Source: Labyrinthula sp. Ha
Lineage: Eukaryota; Sar; Bigyra; Labyrinthulida; Labyrinthulaceae
Direction: 5' to 3'
Assembly: GCA_015227615.1 (NCBI GenBank)
Contig: JAALGZ010000075.1
Coordinates: 45,819 to 109,818 of the forward strand
DNA: 64,000 bases
Position 1 is the first letter of the stretch; every line of letters starts with the position of its first letter. Both the position numbers and the translations under genes were made by a program. This document shows, one piece after another, positions 16,663 through 55,435 of the stretch. A model generated the notes under the pieces. The model was not told the DNA's origin, did no database searches, and worked only from the letters and a program-made list of their open reading frames with translations.

Positions 16663-17517
16663 TTAGGCTGGACAACTCGAGTCAGAACATAGGTCAAAAA
16701 TATTCTCAACTTCAAAAAACTGCTCATCAGGACAATTACATCCTCCGGAACATTCATTGAGATTAGCTGCTCCATTCGGTTGGCAAGCAACCACAAAATT
16801 ATCCGGGGTACAAAATATGTAAATCGCAGAATCATCTGGTTTATCTTCACAAACTATTTGTGCGAAGGATGTTGGAGATTGAGTAGGATTTGCAGTAGGA
16901 GAAACCGTCGGACTTGTTGTGGGTGAAACACTTGGTGATGCAGTTGGAAAAAACGTTGGACTTAATGTAGGGGATGTGGAAGGACTGTTTGTAGGTGTTG
17001 GCGATGGAGCTACAGATGGTGCAAATGTTGGTGATGTTGTTGGGGAGGTGGTTGGAGAAGAAGTCGGGTGTGTAGAAGGACTATTGGTAGGTAGTGGTGT
17101 TGGTGATATAGATGGAGCAGCGGATGGGGAAACAGTTGGGGAAGTGGAAGGTGCTTTACTAGGGGAGACTGTTGGAGCGTCGGATGGAGCAAGTGTTGGG
17201 GTTGTAGATGGGCTTAATGTAGGTTCTAAGGTTGGAGAAGCAGTAGGAAGAGGAAATGTTGGTGCTCCTGTAGGTCTTGAAGTAGTTGATCCAAGTCCTA
17301 AGTTTGTCGATCCGGTTGCTGCAACTGCTACTCCGTACGATCCAGCACTGAAGATAACGAATATAAGAAGCAAGGTTGCAGCTGAGAGACCAAGACAAAC
17401 TCCTTTAGTTGGTGTAGCTGCATTGACTTCTTCTTCTTCAGCTTTCTTTTCAGCGGCGTCTTCGGTTATTGGATTTTTTACTGCGACTTGTGCTTCTGGA
17501 TCAAGATTTTCAGACAT
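16663..17517 (-). CDS. 8-Cys head, PT-stalk type II membrane protein (member A)
   Basis: This is the longest intact family member, 284 residues from the ATG at 17517 (MSENLDPEAQ). The open frame continues 45 nt upstream, but only to a TTG. Residues 1-40 are charged and acidic, and VCLGLSAATLLLIFVIF begins the single membrane span. The stalk has about 25 PT/SPT units such as SPTTSPTVSPTANPTQSPT. The C-terminal head has eight cysteines: VC, FC, AC, EC, GC-x-C, LC and SC. An N-in, C-out surface protein with an O-glycosylated stalk is predicted. A database search would probably return other low-complexity SPT proteins. The head is not a domain I recognise. The upstream region has AACTTCT (17594-17600 in reverse), as in its paralogues, but no CCCGGT was seen. 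Confidence 0.85.
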   Translation of the reverse strand: MSENLDPEAQVAVKNPITEDAAEKKAEEEEVNAATPTKGVCLGLSAATLLLIFVIFSAGSYGVAVAATGSTNLGLGSTTSRPTGAPTFPLPTASPTLEPTLSPSTTPTLAPSDAPTVSPSKAPSTSPTVSPSAAPSISPTPLPTNSPSTHPTSSPTTSPTTSPTFAPSVAPSPTPTNSPSTSPTLSPTFFPTASPSVSPTTSPTVSPTANPTQSPTSFAQIVCEDKPDDSAIYIFCTPDNFVVACQPNGAANLNECSGGCNCPDEQFFEVENIFDLCSDSSCPA

Positions 17518-20500
17518 TGTTTTTTCAGTTATGTTTATTGGGTTTAGTTTAATTCTACACAATTATTTATCGCCAGTTTTTTTGGAAGTTATGAGAAGTT
17601 GAATTCACTGAATGTCATGAATATGATGGAACACTTGTCGCATATTATAAGAACATAAACGAAATTTCAGCGTACAATTGATACACGATGCACCATTTTT
17701 GGGGAAATTACCAGATTGTTTGCCTGTCCCAATACTGGTATAATTTATACAGCATATTTGCACTGTATATTATATTCTAAGAAATATGTAAAGTATAGAG
17801 CTGGGCGTGTCAGCTTAAAAGAACCCGAAGTCGAAGTCCAAGGGCATGAACTAGGGTCTTGCTTCATGAATATGTACAAGGCTGAACTAGTGAAGAATTA
17901 CAAAGCAACTTAACTTTGTCTAAGTGTCAATAGCTATATTCCCGTCTTATCTTGGGGTTTCTTTTCCTTCGTACAACTTTAATATTGTTGTAGTCTGAAA
18001 GATATAAAGAGGTAAGTCAAGGTTGTGAATTAGGTCTATCCGATGAAATATTTGACCAGAAAAACGTTTCTGGATATACAGAACGACCAACTAATCGCAT
18101 TTAAGAAAACCACTAGTGTCTTTCAAGAAACTGAGATAAACTGTGTGGAGGTATATTCATTAAAATAACAGCTGACAAATGGAAGACAATAAGTTAGATA
18201 AGTATAGTAATCACTTATCCAGACTAGGTTTTAATATCTCCTTTTCTTTGGCATATTAGAGCTACGCAACTAGTTTCTCTGGAAATAATTAAAGATCTTC
18301 AGCAGAATTGCAACATTTCTTTTAGAACCAACCCTTAAAGCTTATGCACTTGCTACCGAAGATACATACTTCAGGTCTGAGTGTTGAGTATGATTGCTTA
18401 GGTGCTAGAGGCTATGATTTAACTTTCACTTTGATAGTATATTACATGAATATGTCTTAATATAAAAAGTTCCATTTTAATTCTTGTTCAACCCTACCGA
18501 AATGTTTTAAACAAATATGAAGCACCTGGTGAGGTACTTTGTATGATTCATTCAATATGACTGTTGCGACATATTAGCACTCGCCCTCACCAAGAGTAAA
18601 TACAACAGCACTTACTGTAGGCGAACATTCCTCAGGTCAACCTCCTAGAATTCAATGCCGTGTAATACAGTACCAAAGAAATGGCTAATTTTCGAGGCCA
18701 TGTTTATTCATGTGCTTTGGGTAAATAGTTGTTACTGAGTTTTTTTTCTTAAATGAAATTTCCCAAATAAACTGGAACCAATCTCATCCCATGATGATGT
18801 AAATATTTTTGGTGCTTGTAAATGATATTCTTATAGATATGTCACCATAACGGCATAATATTTTAAATTTATGCGAACTTTGCTTCAAGAAACACACTTT
18901 CATAGTTTGCTCATGCTTCTTTTTATTAGAAGAAACTGTAACAATCTGTTTTGCTGTATAGAGAGTTCATATAGTTTTAAACCAGTAAAACTTAAGAATC
19001 TGCTCTCGTCTCGAGGCATAACATATCAATTGATCATACAATAACCACTCATTGCTGGCATCCTTGCGAGAGCTCTTGAAACAATAATTTCATTGCGCCT
19101 TATGATGTGTCTTCTGACGTGCTTTACAAGAACTAAGCCCTCGGGCGAAATATAAAAATGAACAGATAAGATACTTATGTTTCTTGGAAAAAATAAGTGA
19201 TTGAAACTAAGACAAACGACGGTGGGATCTAAGTATATATGTCATCATGACAGAATTGTTAATATTTAGTCTTCTTCATGCAGAAGGATTCCCATAGCTA
19301 CATCTGATTCACTAACTGATATTATTCGAAGGGATAAACAATCCTGTCAGAGTTCTGAGAGATATTGATTTTTATCAAGAAAACCTTGGATTAATAAAAT
19401 CAGAGAGAAAACTTATTCTAACTTGAGTATAAAGATGTACTTGGTTACTTTTTACTATATAAGGTGGTGTGTCTCATAAATAGTTGCTTTCACATGCGTA
19501 ATGCTTAAATTTCTTAGCTTTCATTGGAGTTGGCTTGACTTAATAAGACGGCTCATATCGCAGAAAAAATATTTCATGACCAATTTAAACATAACCATAT
19601 GAATGTTAGTTTGAACAGCTTAGACCTACCAAATGAAATCCACTGACCAAATAGAATATTAATATTGTTTTACAGAAGTATGTAATGTAGGATGTGGAAC
19701 TACAAAGGTTGAAACCAAGTATCTTTTCGTACCACTTGCTTTCTGTATCTAGCGTATGCAGTAGGATAAACACGTTGATAAGAATTGTTTTCCTTTTTAT
19801 GTATGCATATTTGCCTTGGTTATATCATTTGGATTTAGGTTTGTATCCTGTGCCTGATTAAGGGATTTCAGTTTAATAAATACGTAAGGGTATTGAAAGT
19901 ACTGAATGATTTAGCAATATTATAGAAATACAGAAGTTATGGTTTCAAAACTACATATATGTTTCTATTTAGGACAGTCAGCTCATGTATTAAGTTAATC
20001 CTTCTCATTTACCGGTTATTTTTAATATGGATAGTAGGAACCGACTAAGAATAAGCTCCTTCCAAAGCTAAGGAGTTGTATATTCCACTATTCTGCTGGT
20101 AATCTGATAGTGTCAACTGTTTATGAATCTAATTATGCTGTAATATATAGCCTGTTGTTAGTACAGCCATTTTTATATAAGAGCTGACAGCAAGTGATGA
20201 TTATCTTTCAAGGAGCTGTGAAGGAAAATCAATCGGTTCACAAGTACATTATGCTCTTTTACTCATTGTAAACGTTCAATTGACGCGCGTTTATATGAAT
20301 TTGTTAGGAACCATATTATACCTTGAAAAAGATTTTGCCAATGAAATCCTGAGATGTTGCCCTCTCAACAGAAAAACTCAAATTAGTTCGTTTTCAAGAA
20401 GTTTTGCGCTAAGTGAACATATCTTTCCAGATTTATTACCGCAACAAGACAGGATAATGTTTTCATTAACTCTCAAAATAAAACTAAGTAAGATATAGCT

Positions 20501-21350
20501 ATGCCAATTATCTTACACTATAATAGTAGTATAATCAATGAAAAAAACTTTATAGCTGTAACTGAACCAAAACAAAGTGTGTCTAAATTACTTTTTGAGT
20601 CATCGCTGTTACCTGAAATTTAGGTTACAGTTCTGTTCACTTTTGGTTACTTACAGTACCGAAAGATCACTATGCTTCAGCATTTACCATGATTACCCAA
20701 GAATAATTTTTGATTTCCACGGTTATGAATTGTACTTACATGTCCCCATTCTACTTCAAATAAAGATCCAGATTCAGAAATGAAATATAAAGAGGAGAAC
20801 TGAACCTTAAATTAGAACTCAGAAAAGATCTACTTTCTTACCTACAATTTCTTTGCATAGATGCTATTTAAAATAAAACTTAGCAAAAGGAGAAATACTT
20901 CTCTCACGATTTATTACCTTTCTTTCCAAATACTCGTCTTCTTTATTCTATTCCTCACTGTAACATGTACATTTGCTATATCCTCACAATCTTGTTTGAT
21001 TACTCTCAATGACGAAGTTTATAGAAATAAGAGAAACAAAATAAAGTAATTCCCTAAAAAATGATGCTTGTTGAAATATACTTCGTCGTCAAACCACTTA
21101 TACATGATGTGGCTATGTTGATGTGTTTTCTACAATCTATAGAACGTTGTAGTTAGGCTCAACAACTGAAGGAAAGGGCACAGCCGTTTCCTTAAGACTG
21201 TTTTTATTCACCATCTCCAGTTCAGAGTATTTAGAGTGCTATGTTAATATTGAGATAGCTGAAGAGTATGTACCTCTATATGCTTTTGACATTTCTGGTA
21301 CTCGTATTATTTTCTCAATATTGCATTTCTGCAACCACAAAGTAAATAAT
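17518..21350. other. Intergenic, no gene seen
   Basis: Nearly 4 kb of AT-rich DNA. Frames of 60-75 codons at 17716, 20280, 20577 and 20861 carry no family signature. The one at 20861-21049 has a hydrophobic centre but no continuation. Confidence 0.5.
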
Positions 21351-21390
21351 CCCGGTTCCAAACTTTAGAAACACAATAACTTCTGAATAT
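21351..21390 (+). promoter_or_regulatory. Bipartite upstream element of member B
   Basis: CCCGGTTCC at 21351-21359 is followed 27 bp later by AACTTCTGAATAT at 21378-21390. The start codon is at 21406. The same two boxes, similarly spaced, stand in front of member H and in weaker form in front of member E, in otherwise divergent sequence. The element probably contains or adjoins the transcription start, which is an inference from position. Confidence 0.55.
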
Positions 21391-21405
21391 ATAAGAATAA
21401 AAACT

Positions 21406-21963
21406 ATGCAAACGAATAAAGAAACTGATACTCTTGTGAAGATCGAAGATATAAATAATATAGACCAAACTATATCAAAAACAGAAAATAAAACAACTTG
21501 CCTGGGTTTCTCTGCAATCACCATTGTCTTGCTCTTTGTTCTTTTCACTGCTGGATCTTATGGCATAGCAGTTGCAGCAACTGGATCAGGAACTGTTGGA
21601 TTCTTTTCAGCCTCATCCTCAATAAAACCAACTTCTTCTCCGACTTTAACCCCTTCCGTGAGTCCATCACTATCTCCTTCTCCCCATCCAATAAATAGTC
21701 CAACAAATTCACCTACAAGAAATCCATCTGAAGCTCCTTCTTCGTTTGCTTTGAACATCTGCATAGAAAATCCAGCTAGTGGTGTTAATGTATTTATGTG
21801 TTTGGAAGATGAGTTTTTTGTACGCTGTTCTACATCAGGAGATGCTGAACTAGGTCAATGCGACGTAGCTTGTGGATGCACAAAAAATGAGTTCTTTTTT
21901 GTCTCTAGTTTGGATGATATTTGTGAAGATCCTGATTGTTTTGATCCTGTAAATATAGGATAA
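21406..21963 (+). CDS. 8-Cys head, PT-stalk type II membrane protein (member B)
   Basis: 185 residues with the family layout. A cytosolic N-terminus of about 35 residues ends in the juxtamembrane TTCLGFSAI. One span follows (IVLLFVLFTAGSYGIAVAA), then a short stalk rich in SPT/PSxSPS, then the head with cysteines IC, MC, RC, QC, AC-G-C, IC and DC. The span and the VAATGS linker after it are close to member A, so the two are recent paralogues although they lie 4 kb apart on opposite strands. It is intronless. A role at the cell surface or wall is inferred from topology only. Confidence 0.85.
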   Translation: MQTNKETDTLVKIEDINNIDQTISKTENKTTCLGFSAITIVLLFVLFTAGSYGIAVAATGSGTVGFFSASSSIKPTSSPTLTPSVSPSLSPSPHPINSPTNSPTRNPSEAPSSFALNICIENPASGVNVFMCLEDEFFVRCSTSGDAELGQCDVACGCTKNEFFFVSSLDDICEDPDCFDPVNIG

Positions 21964-22643
21964 CTTGGTTAAGAAATTAGAGCAAACCAAATTTTGGCAT
22001 AAATTGAAATAAGACAGAATATTTCTTTGAATATATTTTATTAAATCTATAATTATTTGCATTTGAAAATCATTCTTATCGAGGATTTCTTTGGGTATTA
22101 TCCATGAAAAGAAAACTAAAAACTTCTCTCTGCACTTGCTGTCTTTAAAGATGACTTAATTTTTTCTATGGATTGTTTTATTCTCTGTTTGAAAAAAATT
22201 AATTCCAAATAACTTTTATTTACAGGAAGTTTCTATTTATTTGGAACATATTGCCTTCTATTCTTCAAAACTTATTTTCCACATAGTTTTAATGTATTTT
22301 AGTTCGTTAATGCTGACTAACAAGCTATACGCAACGAAATGCAACAAAATCACAGATGGACTTTCATCTCAAACTTTGGTTGCTAACTTAGTCAACTATT
22401 TGAAGGTTTCACTCTTAAGTCATAGACGAGAAAAGTTTATACTATTAATCTTAAAGTTTCTGCTACAAATTAAACATTTTCAATCCATCAAAAGTGCAGT
22501 CTTTTACCCCTTGAAGATCTTAAAAATGATTTTTTTTATGATATCCTTAAAATACTATTATAAAGGACATACGAAAAAGAAAGTATCCAAGAAAAGGGAG
22601 ACATACAGAAACTAGAACACGACATGCTTAATTCTGGTCGGAG
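21964..22643. other. Intergenic between members B and C
   Basis: An open frame at 22241-22615 (TTG start, 124 codons) is Lys/Leu/Ile-rich and matches nothing. It is probably chance in AT-rich DNA. Confidence 0.45.
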
Positions 22644-22653
22644 TTCCCGGTTC
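22644..22653 (+). promoter_or_regulatory. TTCCCGGTTC box upstream of member C
   Basis: The box lies 138 bp before the ATG of member C and is preceded by GAG, as in front of member G. A weak match to the second box (TTACTTGATAG) follows about 25 bp later. Confidence 0.45.
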
Positions 22654-22790
22654 TTGTAGTAGTTTTGTAATATTACTTGATAGTTGTTGTACAGTTAGCG
22701 GAGTAATAGAAATAAAATAGGATAATAAGAATAAGTAACAGAAGTTACAAAATAGAACAAAAAAAATATTTGCAAACAAAATAATAACAA

Positions 22791-23309
22791 ATGTATCATT
22801 CTGAAAACCATTACCCTAAACAAAACGTGCTCACTATTGAAAATACTCAGAACACCAATACTGAGGGAAATGGGAATAAAAATGACCACTGTTGCTTCTT
22901 TTCCATACCTAGTGTCCCCTTTGCCATCTTTCTAGCATTAATTGGCATGTATTTTACTGCATTTGCAGCTACTGGTCAACCTGATTTAGGTTTCTCGTTC
23001 CCTTCAAGAACATCCTCACCTACCAGTGCTCCATCTTTACGCCCTACAATTTCTCCATCAAAATCGCCTACATTAACACTAACTTTTCAACCTACTTCTT
23101 TTGCAGATACGATTTGCGCGGAGAAACCTTTCACTCGACCAGATTTGTTGATATGCTTACCGGATGAGAGTTATGTAATTTGCAATGAGGATGGAAGCAG
23201 TGCCTCTGGTATTTGTGCATCAAGTTGTAACTGTGAGGATAATGTATTTGTAGAGTTTACACTTTTTGTAAATCCTTGTGAAGAAAATATTTGTCAAGTA
23301 CCAATTTAA
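22791..23309 (+). CDS. 8-Cys head, PT-stalk type II membrane protein (member C)
   Basis: 172 residues. The N-terminus is Asn-rich and polar and ends in two cysteines next to the membrane (DHCCFFSIP). The span reads VPFAIFLALIGMYFTAFAA, followed by the family linker ATGQPDLGF. The stalk is short, about 35 residues, with APSLRPTISPSKSPT. The head keeps all eight cysteines (IC, IC, IC, IC, SC-N-C, PC, IC). The ATG at 22791 is the first in the frame and has an A-rich leader. It lies downstream of member B in the same orientation and looks like a tandem duplicate. Confidence 0.85.
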   Translation: MYHSENHYPKQNVLTIENTQNTNTEGNGNKNDHCCFFSIPSVPFAIFLALIGMYFTAFAATGQPDLGFSFPSRTSSPTSAPSLRPTISPSKSPTLTLTFQPTSFADTICAEKPFTRPDLLICLPDESYVICNEDGSSASGICASSCNCEDNVFVEFTLFVNPCEENICQVPI

Positions 23310-31680: not shown

Positions 31681-31684
31681 GCTA

Positions 31685-31930: not shown

Positions 31931-32030
31931 TAACGCAATTCATACCGGTAGTATTCAACTCGTAGACATCTTAGCTCAATTTTCAACGCCAAGGGTTCGC
32001 GAATGTGGAATGGGAACCTAAGTACTCTAA

Positions 32031-32275: not shown

Positions 32276-33010
32276 ATGACCAACAAGCAACTAGAGCTAA
32301 GTTTAGAGGTTGGAGCCATACCAAGCGCTAAAAAACCGAAGAGACAAAATAGAAACGGGAAAAATCATGCAAATCAAAGATTGAAGGTGCTACTTCTATT
32401 CTTATTAGTTGCCCTTTTACTCGTAGTCCTAACAATATTTTTCTTTGGACCCAATTTGAGCAATCACTTTGATGAAGAGGGTACAATAGATTCAATTTCA
32501 CCAACGGCGTCTACTTTTGCGGATCCATCTACACTTCCAACAACTTCTCCAGTACTTTATCCAACTGAGTATCCCACTCGTCACCCTACAGCTCAACTAA
32601 CTCAGTCTCCCTCAGTTTCCCCAACACCTCTGCCTACATCAAACCCTTCGACAACTCCGTCACACAACCCCACTTCTCTTCCAAGCTATTCTCCAACCAA
32701 TCAACCCAGTAGTTTTCGTTCCGCTCCTCCAACATTTGTTCCATCCACATCACCCACACAAATTCCCAGTTCTTCTCCCTCTTTAACAACTCCAGCTCCT
32801 ACACTAGACCCATATGAAGTTGCAGAATTGTTGTGCAGTAGGAAACCAATAGTTGGATTATACCTGACGATCTGTCTTTCAGATAGAGTAGGAGTTCTGT
32901 GTGACCCAGATGGAGATTTTACCCTTTTTGGCTGTCCAACAGGATGTAATTGTCCACTATACGAGTTCAACGCGCTTTTTAATACAGTTGATCTTTGCTT
33001 AAACTGTTAA
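32276..33010 (+). CDS. 8-Cys head, PT-stalk type II membrane protein (member D, divergent)
   Basis: 244 residues. The N-terminus is strongly basic (KKPKRQNRNGKNH), so N-in topology is well supported. The span is a plain leucine/valine helix (LLLFLLVALLLVVLTIFFF) without the SAGSYG/VAATG signature of the other members, and there is no juxtamembrane Cys. The stalk of about 110 residues is rich in SPT, NPT and TPT. The head has eight cysteines (LC, IC, LC, GC, GC-N-C, LC, NC), with only two residues between the last pair instead of four. It stands with member E (207 bp apart, same strand) and appears to be an older branch. Confidence 0.85.
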   Translation: MTNKQLELSLEVGAIPSAKKPKRQNRNGKNHANQRLKVLLLFLLVALLLVVLTIFFFGPNLSNHFDEEGTIDSISPTASTFADPSTLPTTSPVLYPTEYPTRHPTAQLTQSPSVSPTPLPTSNPSTTPSHNPTSLPSYSPTNQPSSFRSAPPTFVPSTSPTQIPSSSPSLTTPAPTLDPYEVAELLCSRKPIVGLYLTICLSDRVGVLCDPDGDFTLFGCPTGCNCPLYEFNALFNTVDLCLNC

Positions 33011-33146
33011 GAATAGAAAGAAAACACTAAAACATTCTTAAATATCTAAGTTATATTATTGTACTGAATAAATAACAAAATATTGAAATATTTTTCTAAT
33101 TTAAATTCATACAAGTAAAAATTAAACCGACTAGTTTTAAGAAAAT

Positions 33147-33184
33147 CCCAGTTTCATATTTTATGTAATTTTAACTTCTAATAT
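33147..33184 (+). promoter_or_regulatory. Bipartite upstream element of member E (variant)
   Basis: CCCAGT at 33147-33152 (one mismatch to CCCGGT) is followed 26 bp later by AACTTCTAATAT at 33173-33184. The ATG is at 33217. Spacing and order match the elements before members B and H. Confidence 0.4.
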
Positions 33185-33216
33185 TATAATAATAAAACAA
33201 TACTAAAAATAGAAAC

Positions 33217-33852
33217 ATGATGCGAGATAAACAATTACGAGACTTAGAGGTAACTCTTGATATAGAAAACTCACATCATTCAATGCATGAAAGAAAACAA
33301 AAATCTACTTTATGCTGTGGACTAACTACATCTACTTTCCTCCTCTTGTTCCTTATCTCATGCGCATCATACGCAGTCGCCGTTTCTCAAACTGGTGAGA
33401 TTAACCTTGGATTAAGTTTTAGTAATTCACAATCAAATTCAAACCCAGCATCTTCACCCACGTATCTTCCATCTGCATCTCCAACTAACTTACCTACTGA
33501 ATCTCCTTCTCAATCTCCATCCAATGCTCCCAGCAGATACCCTACATCTTCACCAACAGTACAGCCATCAAATTCTCCATCATTTTCACCTTCAAGAAGT
33601 CCTACGAAAAGTCCATCTTCAAGTCCAACAACATTTGCAGATGTAGAATGCGAGAATAAACCATCTTCGTTGGGAAATAGTTTGATGGTTTGTATAGGTG
33701 ATATTGCAGTAGCTTGTCTTATTAATGGAACAACATTTTCAGAACAATGTTTAACTGGATGTTCTTGTTCTGACAATGAGTTTGTTGCAATTACAAATAT
33801 AAATAATATATGTTCAGAATCTCAATGTATTCCAGGAGAAGCAATAGAATAG
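33217..33852 (+). CDS. 8-Cys head, PT-stalk type II membrane protein (member E)
   Basis: 211 residues, starting at the first of two adjacent ATGs (MMRDKQ). The cytosolic part of about 35 residues ends in STLCCGLTTS, again with membrane-proximal cysteines. The span is TFLLLFLISCASYAVAVS and the linker is QTGEINLGLSF. The stalk has about 16 SPT/SPS units. The head keeps eight cysteines (EC, VC, AC, QC, GC-S-C, IC, QC) and one NGT sequon. It is the cleanest representative next to members A and B. Confidence 0.85.
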   Translation: MMRDKQLRDLEVTLDIENSHHSMHERKQKSTLCCGLTTSTFLLLFLISCASYAVAVSQTGEINLGLSFSNSQSNSNPASSPTYLPSASPTNLPTESPSQSPSNAPSRYPTSSPTVQPSNSPSFSPSRSPTKSPSSSPTTFADVECENKPSSLGNSLMVCIGDIAVACLINGTTFSEQCLTGCSCSDNEFVAITNINNICSESQCIPGEAIE

Positions 33853-34527: not shown

Positions 34528-35151
34528 TTAAATTTTATGGTGTTCTGTTAATCCAGCGGATGCGCAGTATGTTTCTTTACATGCATCAGGAGGTGCAGTA
34601 ACATAAAAATATTTATTTAATCCACAAGGACAAGTACAATTAAATATTCTATTATCACCATTGAAACCACAATAATACAAGAAACTTTCATCTTCACAAT
34701 ATAAAGTTTCGTAGTAATTTAAGCTGGATGGTAAATAACAGATTTCATCTAATCTTGATAGAGGTTTTGATGTTGGTGAAAAAGAAGGACTACTGCTTGG
34801 AGCTTGAGATAGTAATTTTGTTGGTGGTTCAGTAGGGGAAAAGCTTGGATTAGATGTTGGTTTTGGTGATGGCGTTGACGTAGGGGAGGAAGATGTTGAT
34901 GCAGTTGGAATGAAAGTAGATTGAGTCGAGGAACCTTTATTGGAAACAAGTCCAAGAGAAACACTACCAGTAGAAATATAAAGTGTAGTGAATATTCCAA
35001 GCAATACTAAAAGTAATGTTGCGCTCAATCTGAAGCAGGAACAAAGATTTGGTCTTCCAGCTTCTTGCACTTCAAGTGGGATTTGACTTTCAATAGCAAA
35101 TTTTGGGTGCAGTTCTAGCTCGGGAGGATTTTGATCCTGGGTTTTTTTCAT
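34528..35151 (-). CDS. 8-Cys head, PT-stalk type II membrane protein (member F)
   Basis: 207 residues. The N-terminus of about 36 residues is acidic and ends in NLCSCFRLSATLL, with two cysteines at the membrane. The span ends LGIFTTLYISTGSVSLGL. The stalk is Ser/Pro/Thr-rich. The head has eight cysteines, but the middle is compressed: the fourth to sixth read NCTCPC, so one residue rather than three lies between the fourth and fifth. Tyrosines are unusually frequent in this head. Upstream, AAGTGTATAG at 35194-35203 (minus-strand gene) is shared with member I. Confidence 0.85.
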   Translation of the reverse strand: MKKTQDQNPPELELHPKFAIESQIPLEVQEAGRPNLCSCFRLSATLLLVLLGIFTTLYISTGSVSLGLVSNKGSSTQSTFIPTASTSSSPTSTPSPKPTSNPSFSPTEPPTKLLSQAPSSSPSFSPTSKPLSRLDEICYLPSSLNYYETLYCEDESFLYYCGFNGDNRIFNCTCPCGLNKYFYVTAPPDACKETYCASAGLTEHHKI

Positions 35152-35446: not shown

Positions 35447-35917
35447 ATGCAAGTTTCAACAAAACAACAAAAAGATAACCAGAGTGAACTCCAAGCAGAT
35501 ACAAAAACGTTCTGTCCATCTCTTCCCGTACTCTTAGTTGTCTTGTACATCATCACCTGTGCTATATACGGAGTTTCTGTCGTAATCTCAGGAAATCTAG
35601 ACTTAGGAATATCCTCTCCTTCTATGAGGAATCCGACGCTATCACCTTCGTTTTCCCCTTCTCATTCCCCTACTGCTTCTCCTAGTTTTATCCCAGCTGG
35701 TCCACCTAGATCACCAGCTGAAGTTTTATGTGACGAAAAACCAACAAGTGATGTGGATCTCATAGTTTGTGCTACAGCTAGAAGACTTATCTTTTGCGGT
35801 GCTGATGGTGGTGCAGATATTGAGTTTTGTACTTGTAATTGTAACATAAATGAGTTCGTTATTGCCACTGATTCAGAAGATCCTTGTTCAGAAACAGCTT
35901 GCGAAGTTTTTGTATAG
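35447..35917 (+). CDS. 8-Cys head, PT-stalk type II membrane protein (member G)
   Basis: 156 residues. The shortest intact member. The cytosolic tail of about 25 residues ends in TKTFCPSLPVLL, with one membrane-proximal Cys. The span is VLLVVLYIITCAIYGVSVV and the linker SGNLDLGISS. The stalk is only about 35 residues and has few SPT units. The head keeps eight cysteines, with FCTCNC in the middle, so like member F it has lost two residues between the fourth and fifth. It is oriented with member H, 139 bp upstream of it. Confidence 0.85.
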   Translation: MQVSTKQQKDNQSELQADTKTFCPSLPVLLVVLYIITCAIYGVSVVISGNLDLGISSPSMRNPTLSPSFSPSHSPTASPSFIPAGPPRSPAEVLCDEKPTSDVDLIVCATARRLIFCGADGGADIEFCTCNCNINEFVIATDSEDPCSETACEVFV

Positions 35918-35994
35918 AGGTTTTTAATCTATTTTGTTTTCTTTTTTTTGCCCAAAATAACGCCCAGCAAATAATTCGTATGTGTAATATTATT

Positions 35995-36031
35995 CCCGGT
36001 ACCAAAGTTGTATTTTTAAACTTCTGAATAT
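35995..36031 (+). promoter_or_regulatory. Bipartite upstream element of member H
   Basis: CCCGGTACC from 35995 is followed 24 bp later by AACTTCTGAATAT at 36019-36031. The ATG is at 36057. The second box is identical over 13 bp to that of member B, 15 kb away, while the sequence between the boxes differs. Confidence 0.55.
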
Positions 36032-36056
36032 AAAAAGAATAAAACAAAATAAAAAT

Positions 36057-36569
36057 ATGGCAGAAGAAGAAAAAGATCCTGAATCACGACTTGCTATTGA
36101 AACCTCCCAAAGGAAAGAGATTAAGACTTTGTGCCTTGGTTTAAATGCGCCCAGTCTCTGTGTAGTTTTTTTTATCATCTTCTGTGGAGTTTATGGAGTT
36201 TCAGTAGCTTTTTCAGGAGAAATAGCACTTGGAATCGGATCAAGTACTATAGAAAGAACTAAGGAACCTACTCATGAACCAACTTTTATTCCATCCAATT
36301 CACCTACACAAAGTCCAACAAGTAGTCCTTCTATTCCCCCAACTACCACTGCAGAGGGAGTTTGCGCAACAAGACCAGGAATAGCAGCCGATGTGATGAA
36401 ATGTATTCCTGCATTTGAAGAAGCAGTATTTTGTTTTGATGATGGAACAATTATACATCTGGAATGTGATATTGGTGCATGCCAATGTGATGCTGATACA
36501 TTTGTACTTGTTTCGAACCTTGCTGATCCGTGTTTTAATAGTGATTGTATTGGTGCAGTTCCATTATGA
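36057..36569 (+). CDS. 8-Cys head, PT-stalk type II membrane protein (member H)
   Basis: 170 residues. The N-terminus MAEEEKDPESRLAIE is acidic and recalls member A. The membrane-proximal Cys is in KTLCLGLNA and the span ends in FFIIFCGVYGVSVAFSG. The stalk is about 35 residues. The head keeps eight cysteines (VC, KC, FC, EC, AC-Q-C, PC, DC), with one extra residue before the C-x-C pair. The segment FVLVSNLADPC is close to member G (ATDSEDPC), fitting a tandem G-H duplication. Confidence 0.85.
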   Translation: MAEEEKDPESRLAIETSQRKEIKTLCLGLNAPSLCVVFFIIFCGVYGVSVAFSGEIALGIGSSTIERTKEPTHEPTFIPSNSPTQSPTSSPSIPPTTTAEGVCATRPGIAADVMKCIPAFEEAVFCFDDGTIIHLECDIGACQCDADTFVLVSNLADPCFNSDCIGAVPL

Positions 36570-43022: not shown

Positions 43023-44021
43023 TTATGCTTGAGCTAAAACATTTCCAACATATTCTTCTCTATGCTCAATAAAATGAGTTAAATTAAGATCTCTTTTTGG
43101 AACTTGATTATCAACTGCCTGAAAACAGTCACAAAATTTATCTTTTTTTTCTGAATATAAACCAAAAGTATTATCAAAAGGTTTAATATATCTTTCTGGA
43201 AAATATATTGGTCTTATAGCCTTTTTATGATCAGAAACAACAGTCAAAAGTTTTTTTGTAATAGATTTTCTTGGAACTGATAAAAGAAGAATAATTTTCT
43301 TTTGAAATATTTGAAGAAATAAAACTCCAAAAAAACATATAATTAATTCAACTTCAGATTTTGCAGTTTTTAAAAAAACATAACTAAAAGGAAACAATAA
43401 AAAGTTATAAAATAAACCTGGAAGAAAAAACAAAATATAAAAAGAACCTTTCAATTTTTGTTTAAATGAAACATTCATATTTGTAAATATTTTAAAAGGA
43501 ATATAAAAAATATTCACAAAAAGATAAATAACTCTTTTCACTAAATTAGAACTCAAAGCTTCATTTAAACCAGGACCAAAACCAAAATATCCATTTAAAA
43601 AAGGTTCTTTTCTGCCAATAGAAATAAATATTTTTTTATTTACTAAAGAAATTAAACTGATTAAAGTAAAAGCAGCAGAATTTAGGGTTTGAGGCAATAG
43701 AAATAAAAAGCAGAGCGATATAAACACAGGTTCTAAATTAAGAGAATTTTCAGTTTTTTCTTCCAATTTAATATAAAGAAATAACAATGTACATAAACAA
43801 CTGTAGATGAAGAAATTGAGTACAATACTTGAATATGAAAAAACTCTTTTCTCATTCTCTTCTCCAGTTCTTGCAGGTTTTAAGTTTTTTGGTTGAGGAA
43901 ATTTAAGAAAATCAGTTTCATCAAATTCTTGATCAAAACAAAAGAATCTTTCTAAGCAGAAATCGAAATAATCTTCAATTCTTTCCATTCTTGAATACTT
44001 TGGTAATTTTTCGTCATTCAT
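43023..44021 (-). CDS. Multi-pass membrane protein of unknown function
   Basis: 332 residues from the ATG at 44021 (MNDEKLPKYS). The frame runs 27 nt further upstream only to a TTG. The N-terminal 75 residues are soluble and rich in Asp, Glu and Phe. Four to six hydrophobic segments follow, including IVLNFFIYSCLCTLLFLYI, FISLCFLFLLPQTL, SFYILFFLPGLFYNFLLF and LIICFFGVLFLQIF. Lys-rich loops lie between them and a soluble tail of about 80 residues ends ...YVGNVLAQA. There are no PT repeats or Cys head. I do not recognise the family. Only 109 bp separate its start from that of the divergent RCC1/EF-hand gene, so the two may share control. Confidence 0.65.
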   Translation of the reverse strand: MNDEKLPKYSRMERIEDYFDFCLERFFCFDQEFDETDFLKFPQPKNLKPARTGEENEKRVFSYSSIVLNFFIYSCLCTLLFLYIKLEEKTENSLNLEPVFISLCFLFLLPQTLNSAAFTLISLISLVNKKIFISIGRKEPFLNGYFGFGPGLNEALSSNLVKRVIYLFVNIFYIPFKIFTNMNVSFKQKLKGSFYILFFLPGLFYNFLLFPFSYVFLKTAKSEVELIICFFGVLFLQIFQKKIILLLSVPRKSITKKLLTVVSDHKKAIRPIYFPERYIKPFDNTFGLYSEKKDKFCDCFQAVDNQVPKRDLNLTHFIEHREEYVGNVLAQA

Positions 44022-44130
44022 GTTTTTGAAAATGTGAAAAGATGTCAAAAACTAATTGCCCAAAATATGAATTTTGTGAAATCATTTCATAGTTTATATA
44101 CGTTAAGAAAATGATGAGAGAAAGAATCTT
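44022..44130. promoter_or_regulatory. Putative bidirectional promoter
   Basis: The 109 bp between two divergent start codons must hold both leaders and core promoters unless the transcripts overlap. AT-rich, with TTTATATAC near its right end. No CCCGGT or AACTTCT box is present, so control differs from that of the 8-Cys family. Confidence 0.4.
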
Positions 44131-47100
44131 ATGAAAAAAGAAGAGACCGGAAGAGATTCAAAAGTCAAGAGAAGATCTTCAAGAATTGAAAAGACTGGCT
44201 ATTTATTGAATATTGGTGTTAAAATTCAAAAATTGGCGTGTGGAGTTTCACATTGTGTTCTTCTTGATGAAAGCTTTTGTGTCTTTACCATGGGCAGCAA
44301 CGAGTTTGGACAACTTGGGATAATAAACTCGAAAAGTGGAATGATTGAATGTGGAAATAAATTAGATACCATCCATCGCCTTTCATTAAAAGATATGAAT
44401 TATGTTGCAGCAACTGACTATACTAGCTGTTGCTTTAAAGAACAAGAGCAAACATTTTTTTCATGGGGGTACGGTAAGCATGGAGAACTAGGACTTGGGT
44501 TAGATATTATAAAAAGTCATCAACCGAAAAAAGTAAATTTTGCTTTAGAAATAAAAGGTGGCTTCTGGGTTCAGTCTACGGCTACCTCTGTTATTTTGCT
44601 TTCAAAGACCTTGTTGTCAATGGTCGTGTTTGGCAAAGTGTCAAAGGCGTTGATAAAGTTTATTGGGCCAGGTTCAGTTTATTTGGAGCTTATGCAGGAA
44701 AAAAAGTTCATTTGCTTGTTCAAACCTGTTTTATTTTCTGACTGGTGCAAGAATGACTTTGCTTTTAGACAGGGAAGGAGTTTGCTCTTTAGAAAGTTTA
44801 TAGAAATGAATAACGTTTTCATCTTAATTCCAGCGGATCTAGGTCTGCAGTTTATTAGGATTATGGAGAAGACCTTGACTATCCAAACTATTATTACTAT
44901 GTTTTCTTTCGAAAACTCTAAAGTTCTTCAAGTATTGTCATTGAAAACGGATATTCTATTGTTGCTGATCCAGAGTTTTGGAACTAAGAAGGGAATTCGG
45001 TTAATTGCTGTTCAAATTGATAAAACCGTTATTCATAGGATCTTAGTTCGCCCCAAGGTTGTGCTAGATGGCTTTACTTTTTGCCTAACACGTACAACTT
45101 GTTTGTGCAAAGTTATTCGAGGTGACGAGGTTCACGTTCTTCTGATTTCTGATGCTGCAGCTTTGCTACTTTCATCTGATTGGCAATTCCCAGAACTGTC
45201 ATTTCAATTTAACAGGGTCTTCTTGTTTTCGAATTTAGGATCCTACAAGTCTACAACAGTAAAAGAATCTGTTACTATTGCAAATTTGGAATATGAAGTA
45301 CCAAGAAATCAGAATAGAGAACTCTTGAATAAAATAACAGCACAGGGAAATTTTGTTACTTTAGATGAACATTATGATTTAACCGCTTTTGGTAGGAAAC
45401 TGTTTGATGATAATCTTGTGCTTGAAGCGAGAAGGATCTTTTACTCGTTTGATACGGATTTTTCAAATGAACTCGAAACAAGTGAATTTAAGAAAGCTTT
45501 AATACGCTTTGGATTTAATAGTAAAATACCTTTTAAGAGGCTGACACTGAAGAGGTGTCAAAACCTAATTCGAAAGTTTGACGAGAACAACAATGGAAAG
45601 ATATCCCTCGAAGAGTTTTTATCCTTCGCTTATTTTTATAAATGGCAAACCTACGATGGCAACAGAAAATTTCATATTGTGCGTAAGATTTCCCGAAGCC
45701 TTTTTTCCAATTATTCTCTTACATATAAAGAAAGAAGGTTATCTCCAAAGACGTATCTTTTCTTTGCTGAAATCTTTTTGAAAATACTAATAAAACTGAA
45801 CATGAGGAGCAGCATAAAAGAGGAAAACCTAACTAAAATTCTGTACCCTATCAATCAGAAAAAGCTGTGCTTTGGAGAAGTTGATTTTTCGAACCTCGAT
45901 CTCGCTGATGAACATATCGAAGCCTTGAAGATTGCATTAATCTGTGTTCCGGTCATTAAAAAACTTGATTTGCGAAGTAACAAGCTCACACCACTCGGTG
46001 CCAAGAAGCTGATCGAAATTCAAAAAGTTCATGACTTGCTTGCCAACTATCACGGATGTGCGCAATGCATTATATGCAAAGATATTCTTCCCTTTAGCAA
46101 TATACGGAACGTTGAGGACAGTGATCTAATATCTTGTAAGTGCTCACCAACTTCTAAGGGCGGGTTGTTTTATCGCCTCCCAGTATTTTGGTTGGAAGAA
46201 GTTAGGATTACACAGAGAATCACATGCATTCAAGTTGAAAGCTATTTGTGTTTCCAGTTACGGAATAGGATTAACATTATAAGCAGGAACATATTATCCA
46301 GAAAGAATAAAGGAATCTCAAGGGAAAAAGTGCTTAACCAAGCTCATAAGCTTTTTGCTGAGGTTATTGTAAAGCTAAAGTCTATGCTTAGAAATGAATT
46401 TTCAGAAAACACGTTTCGCAAAGAGGTGCAAAGGGTATTCCTAGAAGCTGATACTGATAAGTCAGGGTTCCTTGAGCTTTCTGAAGTTGGAAAGTGCCTT
46501 TCTTTGCTCGGGGAGAAAAGATATTCAAAGGAAGAGTTATTGCTATTATTCAAAGATATTGATGCTGACAATAATGGAAGGATAACTTTAAAGGAGTTTA
46601 CTGAGTTTGCACTTTCTTCTGGGAACAAGAGGAAACGTCAGAAGCATTTACTTGGAAGTAAAACCTTTGAATTGGTGGCTTGTTCTTATGATGAGCAATT
46701 TACTGAAGCTGCAATAATACTTAGGCTCAATTTTGTTTTTGATGGGCTTCGAGAAAACTTATTGATGGTTTACGAGCGAAAATGTAAGAATATGCTGCGA
46801 GGGCTAGAAGTGGAAATTAGATCTGAACTCAATGGTTGTGGCCCCGAACTTTTTAACAGGAGCGTTTCCGAGTCTACAGAAAATACGTTTCCAAAATTAA
46901 GACTCAATTTTTTAGAATTACTTCAGAATAAGTTATTATACTGTACTGGAAAAGTCAAAGAAAGTGATTGGACTTTTGAGGTTCAGGAAACGAGTGTATT
47001 GTTAGATATGATAAATCATTTGGGACACTCATTGAGAGAAGAACAGTTCAAGAAATATATTTCCTCGATATCTGCTAGAGAAGCGTATCAAGTAGACGAG

Positions 47101-47181
47101 AAAGTACTGATTCATACTGATGATGGTCAAGTAACGGTTTTAGATGTCTCTTTCATTGGTTTACAGAAGGAACTCTCATAA
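44131..47181 (+). CDS. RCC1-repeat / EF-hand / LRR fusion protein
   Basis: 1016 residues in a single exon. In-frame TAA at 44104-44106 precedes the chosen ATG. Residues 1-25 are basic. RCC1-type repeats at about 30-150 show GSNEFGQLG and WGYGKHGELGLG, and a degenerate stretch follows to about 400. EF-hand loops DTDFSNELETSE (about 440) and DENNNGKISLEE (about 484) form a first pair. An LRR-like segment (LDLRSNKLTPLGAKKL) lies near 610, then a Cys cluster CAQCIICKD...CKC (about 635-670) that could bind metal. A second pair has loops DTDKSGFLELSE (about 774) and DADNNGRITLKE (about 811). Three of the four loops have a full set of calcium ligands. The first is weaker. RCC1 repeats usually form a seven-bladed propeller, and only two are clear here. 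The sequence suggests a calcium-responsive scaffold or exchange-factor-like protein. Its partner is unknown. Confidence 0.8.
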   Translation: MKKEETGRDSKVKRRSSRIEKTGYLLNIGVKIQKLACGVSHCVLLDESFCVFTMGSNEFGQLGIINSKSGMIECGNKLDTIHRLSLKDMNYVAATDYTSCCFKEQEQTFFSWGYGKHGELGLGLDIIKSHQPKKVNFALEIKGGFWVQSTATSVILLSKTLLSMVVFGKVSKALIKFIGPGSVYLELMQEKKFICLFKPVLFSDWCKNDFAFRQGRSLLFRKFIEMNNVFILIPADLGLQFIRIMEKTLTIQTIITMFSFENSKVLQVLSLKTDILLLLIQSFGTKKGIRLIAVQIDKTVIHRILVRPKVVLDGFTFCLTRTTCLCKVIRGDEVHVLLISDAAALLLSSDWQFPELSFQFNRVFLFSNLGSYKSTTVKESVTIANLEYEVPRNQNRELLNKITAQGNFVTLDEHYDLTAFGRKLFDDNLVLEARRIFYSFDTDFSNELETSEFKKALIRFGFNSKIPFKRLTLKRCQNLIRKFDENNNGKISLEEFLSFAYFYKWQTYDGNRKFHIVRKISRSLFSNYSLTYKERRLSPKTYLFFAEIFLKILIKLNMRSSIKEENLTKILYPINQKKLCFGEVDFSNLDLADEHIEALKIALICVPVIKKLDLRSNKLTPLGAKKLIEIQKVHDLLANYHGCAQCIICKDILPFSNIRNVEDSDLISCKCSPTSKGGLFYRLPVFWLEEVRITQRITCIQVESYLCFQLRNRINIISRNILSRKNKGISREKVLNQAHKLFAEVIVKLKSMLRNEFSENTFRKEVQRVFLEADTDKSGFLELSEVGKCLSLLGEKRYSKEELLLLFKDIDADNNGRITLKEFTEFALSSGNKRKRQKHLLGSKTFELVACSYDEQFTEAAIILRLNFVFDGLRENLLMVYERKCKNMLRGLEVEIRSELNGCGPELFNRSVSESTENTFPKLRLNFLELLQNKLLYCTGKVKESDWTFEVQETSVLLDMINHLGHSLREEQFKKYISSISAREAYQVDEKVLIHTDDGQVTVLDVSFIGLQKELS

Positions 47182-47456
47182 CATATATCTCCTATCTTAG
47201 CTAAAACGCAACGAATCTAAGTTATTAGAATTTCAACTGTTTAGATACGGGTTCTGTTTGTATTTCTATATACAGTTGGATGTAGTAGCCAGTTTGTAGC
47301 ACGAAGTTTGTTGTTTTACGTGCTTGGGTATTCCGTTAAGCTACTGTTACGTTGTTTGTAGTGTGAATTGGGTCGACTTGATGTCTAACTTGGTACATGC
47401 AGTTTTAAACAAAAATAGTTTCATATTTTATAGAGTCTAGAAAATGTGCTTACCAG

Positions 47457-48712
47457 ATGAACATTGGTGTATGTGTACAAACTTTATTTTGTGTTAGACC
47501 TTTCTGGGGTTATTATTTTTTCATTTGTTCACTCTGCACATGGTTGAAGTTCAAATGGATATTAATTTCTATCAGAATATTTCTTTTGAAGGGTGCAAAA
47601 CCACAATCGCAAAGGCTGACATTAGAGGAGTTACGTTCAGAAATAATTGTAACTTCCTTGAACAAACTTTTTCAACATTAGACCATTATATTCGACCAGC
47701 AAGGCATAATATGGTTTCCCTTGCTTTGTTCTATGAAACAAGATTGAACGTACGTGAAAAGCTATCTGAATATGTTAATGCTACTTTGGATGTGGAATTC
47801 GAAAGTTGTAACCAATATATTTCCAAACAAAAGGCTACGCTAGATGTTTATTTTACTGAGGTTCTTGAGAATTTGAAAGAAGATGATTTGGTTAGGCACT
47901 ATCCCACAGGTTTTTTCAACGTGAACAATACTGAAATAATGCTTTTAGACCAATGTGCTGACTATACAACTTTCCCTGAACCCTGCGTGGAGACCTTTTC
48001 ATTTGCTGTATTGAACTCATCACTTCTTGTTCGTGGGGAAGTTGACTCTCTTTTAGATTTTGTGCCTGACGAAAATATGGACTTATTGCTTCGAGTGTGC
48101 GAAGCTCAAGAGAGATCAAATATTAATCAAATAAATCGTCTTTTGCACGGATTGTTTTATGGTAACATTTTCTTAGGATTTTTAGTTCACATTGTGCTAT
48201 TATGTGTTGTTGAAGACAATACAGATGTTTTATCCAGACTAGACGATTGTGAAAATTATTTTGGCAGCATGTACTTGGTGTCGCTGTTTCTGTTTCTTAT
48301 TTTTCTACCATTATTCTTATTTTATAAGTATTGGAGAGCTGGGGTAGAAGCGATGGGTCTGGAAGCGATGTTAGTTTCTTTCACAGTTGATAGAGGATAT
48401 GATGTGAGAACCAATCTGTTTAAAACGTTGGCATGGTGGTATTGGGTGAACCAGATAATTATATTAATTATCATGCTGTTTGAAAGGCCACTAGTTTATG
48501 CTCTTAAAAAGCCAGAAAGTATCTTTCGAACTCTTCCTCGCTATGGCTTTGACAAGAAAAATATCTCAGAAGATATACTAAGGGGAAAGTTTTTGACCAA
48601 CAACAAACAACTTGAAATCTCATTTCGTTCTTACTTTTCTATTGCTAGTGTTTTTCTTCTTATATATATACATTTCAAAATATTTTGTTCTAGCTTTTAT
48701 AACTCCATGTAG
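47457..48712 (+). CDS. Secretory/multi-span membrane protein, unknown function, possible 12-nt first exon
   Basis: The long open stretch has its first ATG at 47540. A better model starts at ATG 47457 with a 12-nt exon (MNIG). It removes a 29-nt GT-AG intron (47469-47497, phase 0) and continues at 47498 with TFLGLLFFHLFTLHM, giving 408 residues with a signal-like N-terminus. The following 170 residues look extracellular, with NAT, NNT and NSS sequons and several Cys. Hydrophobic spans then include NIFLGFLVHIVLLCVV, MYLVSLFLFLIFLPLFLF, WVNQIIILIIML and SIASVFLLIYIHF. No family is recognised. It lies 276 bp downstream of the RCC1/EF-hand gene on the same strand. If the short first exon is wrong, the product is 390 residues from 47540. 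Confidence 0.6.
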
Positions 48713-49390
48713 TTAAGGAAATAGGTTACAAACAATATATTTCCTTAGTCTCTCCATACATTAAAATTATCATTGTGTATGATCATTGAGATTTATCCAA
48801 TATCTAAATTTAGTTAATGAACTTGAATTTTGGGAATTAAAAACTATCTTCCATTTAATTTAAACTCTTTTCTCAGAGGTTTAACCATGCTAAACCATAA
48901 AAATTCTTCGCAGACAGAGATCACTTAGTATTGAAACAATTATTAGGCAATAAGAGCCTTAGTCTTCCTCTTTCTTGTATTAATATTATGCATATTTATT
49001 CTAAGTTTAACTTTGACAGCTTAATTTATTTATCAAGAACTATTTTTCTCATTTCAAGTGTATAAGTTTAACTCTTTAGTTATGAAATATTTCTTAATAT
49101 TGAAAACAATTATTCTTTAAAAGTTCAATATTGGAAAACAAACTATTACTCAAGTATTAACATATTTACTAACTCATATTTTCTAGAGTTAAACAAAGAA
49201 TAACTTCTAAATATCTATTAATATCCAACAGAGTAATATCTTTTTTTGTTTTACTAATTAATTCTTACTAGTATCAGAAATGAAGAGTAAAAAAACATGT
49301 TTTAGAAAAGGGTTAAATTAAAAAAGGAACAAAAATATGAACAAAACTATATTTTTCATTTGGTTGGATAAGAAAGAAACCAACTTATAA
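48713..49390. other. Intergenic, no gene seen
   Basis: AT-rich shared 3' region between convergent genes. Confidence 0.5.
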
Positions 49391-49864
49391 TTAAGATTCT
49401 GGTGCACATTCAATTACACTACAAGAATCAGCTGAATTTTCTACAAGTACAAATTCACCAATCTCATACGGACAAGAAGGTGTACAAAGTGCTATAGCAT
49501 TAACCTCATCTTCTATGCAAACTGCTAACAGTTCTGAACTAATGCACATCATCATATTTAGGTCAGCTGAAGGTTCTTTGGCACAAATATCATTGATGGA
49601 AGTGGATAAAGCAAAAGGAGAAAAAACTGGTGACCTTGATAGAAAATATGTTGGTCTTAGACTTGAAGTATTTTCATTTGAACTCAAATTAGAGCCACTT
49701 TGACTAAATGTTGCTACAGAACTCCAAAAACTGTTGAACAAACCAAGAGAAACAAATACTTGTTTTAGATATGGATAGGGAGATCTGTGTTGATGATTTT
49801 GAATCTTTTTTTTTACATTGGTGAGTTCAAGAGTTGAGTTGATGTTGTGTTGAGTTGTTTCCAT
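49391..49864 (-). CDS. Degenerate 8-Cys family protein (member I)
   Basis: 157 residues with a family head but weak everything else. The hydrophobic stretch YLKQVFVSLGLFNSFWSSVATF is short and interrupted, there is no membrane-proximal Cys, and the stalk has lost its PT regularity (SSLRPTYFLSRSPVFSPF). The head keeps the order IC, MC, VC, LC, SC, then SC and EC, but the second residue of the C-x-C pair is Tyr (SCPYEIGEF), leaving seven cysteines. The frame is intact, so it is either a recently released copy or one with a changed role. AAGTGTATAG at 49900-49909 is shared with member F. Confidence 0.65.
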   Translation of the reverse strand: METTQHNINSTLELTNVKKKIQNHQHRSPYPYLKQVFVSLGLFNSFWSSVATFSQSGSNLSSNENTSSLRPTYFLSRSPVFSPFALSTSINDICAKEPSADLNMMMCISSELLAVCIEDEVNAIALCTPSCPYEIGEFVLVENSADSCSVIECAPES

Positions 49865-50100
49865 AGTTTATTTTGTGTCTTTACTGAAAAATTAGCTTTA
49901 AGTGTATAGAGAACAAATATCTAATCTATTTAATTGTTTTTATTCAATTGCAGAGTTTTCAAAGCTTTTATGATATTAAAAAAAATGTTTCCTATTTTTT
50001 GCAGGGATTTTAAGAAGAGAAATTATTAAATTGTAGGAATATTAAGTTCTTGCTGGGAAAAAGAGTTTACAGAAATAGAATAAGTTTTTCAAAATAAAAT

Positions 50101-50310
50101 ATGCCAGAAAAAAGAAAATTAAGTGTTTTTGAAAATATGAATAGGGATATAAAGAAAGAAAATAAATTATACTTTGATTCAAGAGATCTGCGTTCAAGTG
50201 TTTTTGATTATATAGTTTTTACCGGGTTTCACAGAGCAATGATTAAGAATACTGAAGAGATACTGTTTCAACCTTCATATTCAGCTGATCAAACTACTTT
50301 TATGAGCTGA
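50101..50310 (+). CDS. Short ORF with a family-like leader
   Basis: 69 codons, mostly charged at the N-terminus (MPEKRKLSVFENMNRDIKKE), with no membrane span, PT stalk or Cys. The A-rich leader ending in AAAATAAAAT before the ATG resembles that of member H (36057), and the opening residues have the same charged character, so it could be the stranded 5' end of a lost family gene. It could equally be chance. Confidence 0.25.
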   Translation: MPEKRKLSVFENMNRDIKKENKLYFDSRDLRSSVFDYIVFTGFHRAMIKNTEEILFQPSYSADQTTFMS

Positions 50311-50756
50311 ATTCAACTAAAAGACTACATCCAGCAAATCTACAAATATCAGGCGAAGATGGTTATAAGTTTCAATACTAATTTTGTGGTTGGTGAAACA
50401 ATTCATGAAAACGTTTCTTTAATGGTTGTATATATATATATCTAGATAGATCATATACTTATAGTTGTAAAATATAAAATATAAAGTCATGGTTAGTTTG
50501 CTCTCTAATACTTAAATCAAAACAGAAAACGTCGTCTTGCTTTATTCTTTTGTATGATTTTTTTCATTCGTATTCATGTTACTGATTGTTTTTCTGATTC
50601 AATTAACTCTCAATATCTTGAAAAGTCTTAAGAATAAATGAAAACTCTGAAAAAAGGCTTAATGCTAATTCTAAACTCATGTATTAAAAGAAACATTCAC
50701 AAGAGATAACAAGAGAATTTGTTAACCTTAAGCTCAGCTTAGTATATTTACATAAT

Positions 50757-51320
50757 TTATTGTGAAACTTCTTCACAACTCGTGGTTGCGCAAAGATCAA
50801 ATATATCATTGGGTACAACAAACACGTCAACTGGGCATGTGCAGTTACCACAAGTAAGGACAGCGCCATTCCCATTTGATTGACATACTATTAAACTCTT
50901 TCAACCCAAACAGAAAAAAAATAAGACTGTTGCCAGCAAATTCTACATCCTTACATAAATATTCATCAAAAAAGGTAGGTGCTGGAGAAGGAGAAATAGT
51001 GGGAAAATCTGTTGGAGAAACTGTTGGAGAAAAACTTGGCTTAGAAGTAGGTGATGGAGTGGGTGACAAACTAGGATAAAAAGTAGGAAATGTAGTTGAG
51101 TTATCACTAGTAGAGTTTGTAGGGGGAAAGATGGATAAGAAGTAGAAAATGCAGTTGAGTTATCATCAGTAGAGTTTGCAGGGGAAAAGATGGATAAGAA
51201 GTAGGAAATGCAGTTGAGTTATCATCAGTAGAGTTTGTAGGAGAAAAGTAGGATAAGAACTAGTAAGTGCAGTTGAAATATCTCCAGTAGAGTTTTTAGG
51301 AGAAACACTTGGATAAGAAG
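50757..51320 (-). pseudogene. C-terminal part of a broken 8-Cys/PT-stalk gene (member J)
   Basis: From right to left this minus-strand segment holds stalk repeats (SPANSTDDNSTAFPTSYPSF and relatives, 51070-51320), then a classic family stalk (SPTPSPTSKPSFSPTVSPT), then the Cys head from about 50990 down to the stop at 50757. The head starts LCKDVEFAG and ends NCTCPVDVFVVPNDIFDLC...SC. Between them the frame shifts by one base at an 8-T run near 50920, and the continuing frame meets a TGA before VCQSNGNGAVLTC. Another one-base shift lies in the repeats near 51240. The 5' side ends at the Copia LTR. The same repeat resumes beyond the element at 55633, so this was one gene before the insertion. 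Confidence 0.75.
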
Positions 51321-51501: not shown

Positions 51502-51512
51502 CTCCTCCGTAG

Positions 51513-55423: not shown

Positions 55424-55435
55424 GGATATTGTTTA

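Follow-up and report, generated by a model that had tools for sequence, protein, structure and literature searches.

A clustered family of putative stalked type II membrane proteins with an eight-cysteine head in Labyrinthula sp. Ha

Results and Discussion

The 64,000-base stretch of contig JAALGZ010000075.1 of Labyrinthula sp. Ha that we analyzed (GenBank assembly GCA_015227615.1, positions 45,819 to 109,818; hereafter the window, in whose own numbering all coordinates are given) carries a family of ten clustered genes or gene remnants, members A to J, which share a C-terminal cysteine-rich head with homology far beyond chance. We judge the chances to be evenly balanced that members A to H are single-pass type II surface glycoproteins, in which a stiff, O-glycosylated stalk bears a cysteine-rich adhesive or ligand-binding head; the two remaining copies, I and J, are decaying or dead. 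How microalgae and other protists adhere, mate and build their coverings can depend on stalked surface proteins with cysteine-rich heads, and many such proteins escape annotation, as the stalk is of low complexity and the head is short. The head profile and the cysteine rule described here would allow such proteins to be searched for in other protist genomes.

Homology of the head

We built a profile from the nine readable heads (A to I) and searched it against 2670 six-frame segments of the window. Members A to I, from whose heads the profile had been made, scored 72–86 bits, and the profile also found a piece of J (50760-50900, minus strand) at an E-value of 3e-8; all of the remaining segments had E-values of 1.2 or worse, and the best reversed segment reached 0.29. 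When each head was removed from the profile in turn and then sought, all nine were recovered, with E-values of 2.1e-7 for F and 6.6e-10 or better for the others (best 1.8e-15, for B and G). With the J piece set aside, as it outranked F, the best non-member in these searches had an E-value of 0.93–1.7.

The first-pass annotation had proposed one eight-cysteine order for the entire family, and we found this order, with the spacings C-x(12-13)-C-x(7-9)-C-x10-C-x(1-4)-C-x-C-x14-C-x(2 or 4)-C, in members A to H. We fitted to the heads a pattern that is a little wider than that of the annotation; it matched eight times in the window, every time in one of A to H, and was absent from 20 first-order Markov windows. 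The strict pattern holds in eight of the ten members, the exceptions being I, which has no C-x-C, and the broken J. The [EN][FY] segment said to follow the C-x-C proved to be a looser feature: the aromatic residue is present in 9/9 heads and a preceding Glu in 5/9, and Asn occurs there in none.

Members of the family and their order

The nine open frames A to I lie on both strands where they had been annotated, and the tandem (B-C, D-E, G-H and I-J), convergent (E-F) and divergent (A-B and F-G) arrangements noted there are all present. Member A (16663..17517, minus strand, 284 amino acids, eight-cysteine head at 16666-16866) has the longest open stalk, of about 149 amino acids, and is followed by the plus-strand members B (21406..21963, 185 amino acids, head 21745-21960) and C (22791..23309, 172 amino acids, head 23100-23306). 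Farther along lie D (32276..33010, plus strand, 244 amino acids, head 32819-33007), E (33217..33852, plus strand, 211 amino acids, head 33634-33849), F (34528..35151, minus strand, 207 amino acids, head 34531-34755), which was the weakest of the nine in the leave-one-out searches, and the short-stalked G (35447..35917, 156 amino acids, head 35714-35914) and H (36057..36569, 170 amino acids, head 36348-36566), both on the plus strand.

The claim that ten members share one architecture was not confirmed, and the last two copies depart from it in several ways. Member I (49391..49864, minus strand) is an open frame of 157 amino acids with seven cysteines, no C-x-C, a degenerate stalk without a P[ST]xxP unit, and no clear span, its N-terminal hydrophobic peak being just 1.25; from these features it is probably a decaying copy. 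The 3' part of member J (50757..51322, minus strand) holds a stalk remnant and a head that is divided between two frames and interrupted by an in-frame stop. As it stands, J is a dead pseudogene.

Tail, span and stalk

Hydropathy was evaluated on the Kyte-Doolittle (KD) scale over 19 residues, and Lys and Arg were counted over the 15 residues before and after the span. In all of A to H the strongest hydrophobic stretch is N-terminal, with a KD value of 2.0–3.4, and is preceded by a tail of 21–39 residues; the second-best stretch reaches 0.5–1.5, except in member E. Lys and Arg number 1–5 before the span and 0–1 after it, with an excess before the span in seven of these eight members, G having one such residue on either side. 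A cysteine stands at the putative cytosolic edge of the span in 7/9 members (A, B, C, E, F, G and H; none in D or I), and the same seven have an [ST]-G-x3-[LV]-G motif after the span in common. A tail motif was present in 9/9 members, as compared with a mean of 2.3 in shuffles, none of 2000 of which did as well, although its pattern was devised post hoc and its matches in D and F lie elsewhere in position.

We subjected the N-terminal module to the same leave-one-out procedure as the head, and it was recovered significantly in A, B, C, E, G and H (E-values of 3e-6 to 5e-16), marginally in F (0.077), and not in D (1.2) or I (72). Therefore, the head unites the whole family, and the membrane module is common to most of its members; the shared architecture that had been claimed beyond the head is weak in F and unrecognised in the N-terminal part of D and I. 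The N-terminal part of D, not recognisably homologous to the others, nevertheless has a strongly hydrophobic span (KD 3.42) and a basic tail.

With boundaries set by hand, the stalks of A to H are 36–149 residues long, that of I is 30, and their composition in A to H is rich in Ser plus Thr (0.36–0.47) and Pro (0.19–0.25). The PT disordered repeat (PF04886, Pfam cut-off 26.2 bits) matched the stalks of A (38.4 bits) and E (34.5 bits), these being the only matches of any member above a Pfam cut-off; it fell below the cut-off in B, D, F and H, and C, G and I had no PT match. The same repeat has also been reported from an oomycete, in a cysteine protease that is secreted (PMC10084794). The likeness is confined to the stalks, is that of a low-complexity repeat and not of a function, and leaves the head outside. 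Likewise, P-S-x-x tetrapeptides of OCM3 (PDB 9ufe), which we take to belong to a mastigoneme, aligned with the stalk alone of A at an E-value of 1e-8, a match of low complexity that is outscored by the Plasmodium circumsporozoite repeats. Homology to either OCM3 or the circumsporozoite protein was rejected on these grounds. Among the titles and opening lines of abstracts listed in the literature searches, no paper named OCM3.

Library searches and predicted structure of the head

The annotation had recognised no named domain in the head, and this was upheld by our searches of Pfam, PDB sequences, PDB folds and BFVD, none of which gave a significant head match. At E-values up to 10, the nine heads yielded three Pfam matches, each to one member, the best at 0.1, and the head profile had no match among PDB sequences. 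Full-length members matched five NCBIfam families, one member each, with a best E-value of 0.015, none of them convincing. AlphaFold2 was run on the nine-row alignment with either A or G as the first sequence and gave pLDDT values of 87.1 and 90.1, respectively. Both models contain one helix of 5–6 residues and four short strands in the same order, in which the helix reaches Cys1, strands end at Cys2, at Cys3 and just before Cys4, and one strand follows the C-x-C; as they use the same nine sequences, the two models are not independent. In Foldseek searches with both models against the PDB, nothing was found at an E-value of 0.001 (best 0.74 and 1.5), and the same was true of the model of A against BFVD (best 0.12). 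Among the titles and abstract beginnings listed in the literature searches, none described such a family.

More tentatively, the head may represent a disulfide-rich beta domain that has not been described before and has a fold of its own. The proteins that bear it would then form a lineage-specific family of type II surface receptors or adhesins, S-acylated and diversified within a multigene cluster, with a role in cell-cell recognition or the assembly of a cell covering, in a eukaryotic lineage that has been little studied.

In layout, the nearest known design is that of the plant hybrid proline-rich proteins (HyPRPs), which carry an 8CM domain and to which the A-H family does not belong. The 8CM domain contains an adjacent Cys-Cys, which the heads of A to H lack, and HyPRP or 8CM models were absent among the three Pfam matches of the nine heads. 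HyPRPs are described as having a secretory signal, a repetitive, proline-rich N-terminal part of variable size and, at the C-terminus, an eight-cysteine domain that is poorly conserved in sequence and assumed to be four-helical, and some of their genes are clustered (PMC2216038). The likeness thus extends to a variable proline-rich part, a C-terminal eight-cysteine domain and clustered genes. In contrast, both head models predict a short helix and four strands, not four helices; at the N-terminus, A to H have a hydrophobic stretch, putatively a span, after a long tail.

Weighing the type II reading and its rivals

On hydropathy, A to H are best read as type II proteins, and surface display of the members is plausible. 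According to this model, a cytosolic tail of 21–39 residues would be followed by a single span acting as an uncleaved signal anchor, at whose edge the cysteine of A, B, C, E, F, G and H could be S-acylated. The P-[ST]-x-x stalk of 36–149 residues, probably O-glycosylated and stiff, would then carry the C-terminal head outside the cell. This small domain, some 65 residues long, would contain short beta strands, and its eight conserved cysteines would presumably form four disulfides. Most likely it would be a knob for adhesion or ligand binding, or would anchor the protein in the cell covering, and the paralogues would differ in head surface and reach.

Several observations count against this model. 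Net charge around the span favors an inside N-terminus in D, E and H only; B and C are balanced, and the residues before the span are the more negative in A, F and G. The second hydrophobic stretch of E, at 1.81, lies inside the head. Searches for relatives in contigs of viruses (with B, E, G and H as queries) and of prokaryote genomes (with A) found none, and synonymous divergence within the family is saturated (see below). Because of the net-charge figures, we lowered our confidence in the type II reading from slightly better than even to even. The type II reading that the first-pass annotation gave to all of the members agrees with hydropathy in A to H, and net charge there is mixed.

The main rival is that these are secreted wall or scale proteins, whose long-tailed signal peptide would be cleaved after a small-residue stretch to release a soluble PT-rich glycoprotein with a head that locks into the cell covering. 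The mixed net charge is consistent with this alternative, as are the A-V/F-A-A directly after the span in A, B and C and the AVAV in E, but no such small-residue stretch is present in F, G or H, tails of 21–39 residues are long for a signal peptide, and the edge cysteine and the [ST]G-x3-[LV]G motif occur in the same seven members. Putative cell-wall HyPRPs also join a proline-rich part to a C-terminal eight-cysteine domain (PMC2216038), which speaks for this alternative. Overall, we consider cleavage and secretion rather unlikely. Residence in the Golgi or endoplasmic reticulum, with the stalk as a luminal stem and the head as a lectin or enzyme partner in building the cell wall, appears improbable: the order of tail, span, stem and head is that of type II Golgi enzymes, but a glycosyltransferase would not fit into some 65 residues of head, no catalytic family was matched convincingly in Pfam or NCBIfam, and stalk length varies about fourfold across A to H.

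Least probable, to a degree that we regard as slight, is that the head is related to the chitin-binding CBM14/peritrophin-A domain (PF01607) and tethers the membrane to chitin. On visual inspection, the order C..C..C-xx[DN]G..C-xxG..F..C..C loosely resembles that of CBM14 in its cysteines, glycines and aromatic residue; CBM14 has six cysteines, and the heads of A to H have two more. Among the 50 BFVD matches listed for the model of A, the highest TMq (0.46, E-value 0.84) belonged to an Ac150-like protein, and two baculovirus ORFs had a TMq of 0.41; we presume that Ac150-like proteins hold CBM14-type domains and guess the same of the two ORFs. The BFVD matches that bear on this question are weak, with E-values of 0.5–1. 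However, none of the nine heads matched CBM_14 at E-values up to 10, and a profile-profile comparison with a set of seven sequences scored 9.25 (probability 0.2%), a score equalled by 65 of 200 cysteine-fixed shuffles and 54 of 200 full shuffles. No CBM14 chain was recognised for either model among the 50 PDB fold matches listed out of 621 and 168. A CBM14 head was therefore rejected, on the Pfam search and the profile-profile shuffles.

Divergence of the members

With the stalks left out, synonymous divergence (dS) was at least 0.99 in 36/36 pairs and infinite in five. The proportion of nonsynonymous differences (pN) was lower than that of synonymous differences (pS) in 35/36 pairs, the exception being C-I, which hints at constraint on the family. 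No fork in the head tree was supported. Since synonymous sites are saturated, decay is visible in this family and recent birth is not, so that of the ongoing birth and death inferred from the clustering, the decay of I and J stood and the birth did not; recent duplication was rejected on the saturated dS, the unsupported head tree and the near absence of long repeats. No direct repeats of at least 30 bases occurred in 16000-51000, and a single inverted repeat, between A and B, was found there (107 nt, 70%). The old divergence, together with the decayed I and J, is consistent with birth and death on a long timescale and not with a recent expansion in the window.

The J stalk array and its copia-type element

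Stalks of several kilobases had been attributed to the family and used in its interpretation as surface or wall proteins; they occur solely in the dead copy J, the open copies having stalks of 30–149 residues, so that this argument rests on a pseudogene. The J stalk array (55633..64000, minus strand, running off the window), built of 12-, 60- and 84-bp units (FSPTVSPTFSPTNSTGDNST), is 8.4 kb long with a GC skew of about 0.6 and reads FSPT/GDNST in runs of shifting frame. A functional kilobase stalk was rejected, as the array changes frame nine times and always in the same direction, and the stretch is a relic of the pseudogene.

Seven of these frame changes carry one unit variant, of which the array holds exactly seven copies, and the other two carry a second variant, present in exactly two copies, so the frame-broken units themselves seem to have been copied. 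Five of the seven changes of the first kind also have neighbouring substitutions in common, and copying is therefore favored over sequencing error for those five; sequencing error may lie behind the remaining two and the second kind, which have no such shared substitutions. The locus would thus illustrate the copying of frame-broken units within a stalk array.

A copia-type long terminal repeat (LTR) element (51321..55632, minus strand) lies within the array, and the stalk repeats resume on both sides of it. Its LTRs (51321-51501 and 55448-55632) are about 180 bp long and identical at 158 of 178 aligned bases. The coding part is interrupted, with gag (54716-55432) in one frame and the SH3-like (53082-53744) and RVT_2 (51513-53081) parts in another, where a stop separates them. 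In the flanks inspected, there was no clean target-site duplication.

Shared upstream blocks

A block first spotted by eye before B (21342..21402) is shared with E (33138..33197) and H (35984..36044), in each case on the plus strand and ahead of the start codon, and reads TCCC[GA]GT..CA.A followed by AACTTCT(G)AATAT..AATAAAA. Shuffles aligned as well as the real sequences in 0/300 cases for B-H, 0/300 for E-H and 4/300 for B-E; among the 35 upstream pairs aligned (F-G was left out, and no correction was applied), only three had 6/300 or fewer. This block suggests that some members might be regulated in common. Shared upstream words were not in excess over Markov shuffles. The word TCCCGGT, picked by eye, occurs five times in the window (shuffle mean 1.23; 0/100 shuffles reach five) and is found upstream of B, C, G and H at a distance of no more than 150 bp.

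Neighbouring genes

The GC content of the window, in 2-kb steps, is 0.27–0.38, and scans of it for tRNAs and Rfam families were both empty. Judged by its content, the window is eukaryotic: besides the copia-type element, it contains a Roc GTPase of 635 amino acids (13942-15849, plus strand), with a COR-A match below the Pfam cut-off, and a single frame of 1016 amino acids (44131-47181, plus strand) that joins RCC1-like repeats to several EF-hands. The latter gene is flanked by two open frames (43023-44051, minus strand, and 47498-48712, plus strand) that had no Pfam match at an E-value of 0.01 and in which hydrophobic stretches were seen by eye.

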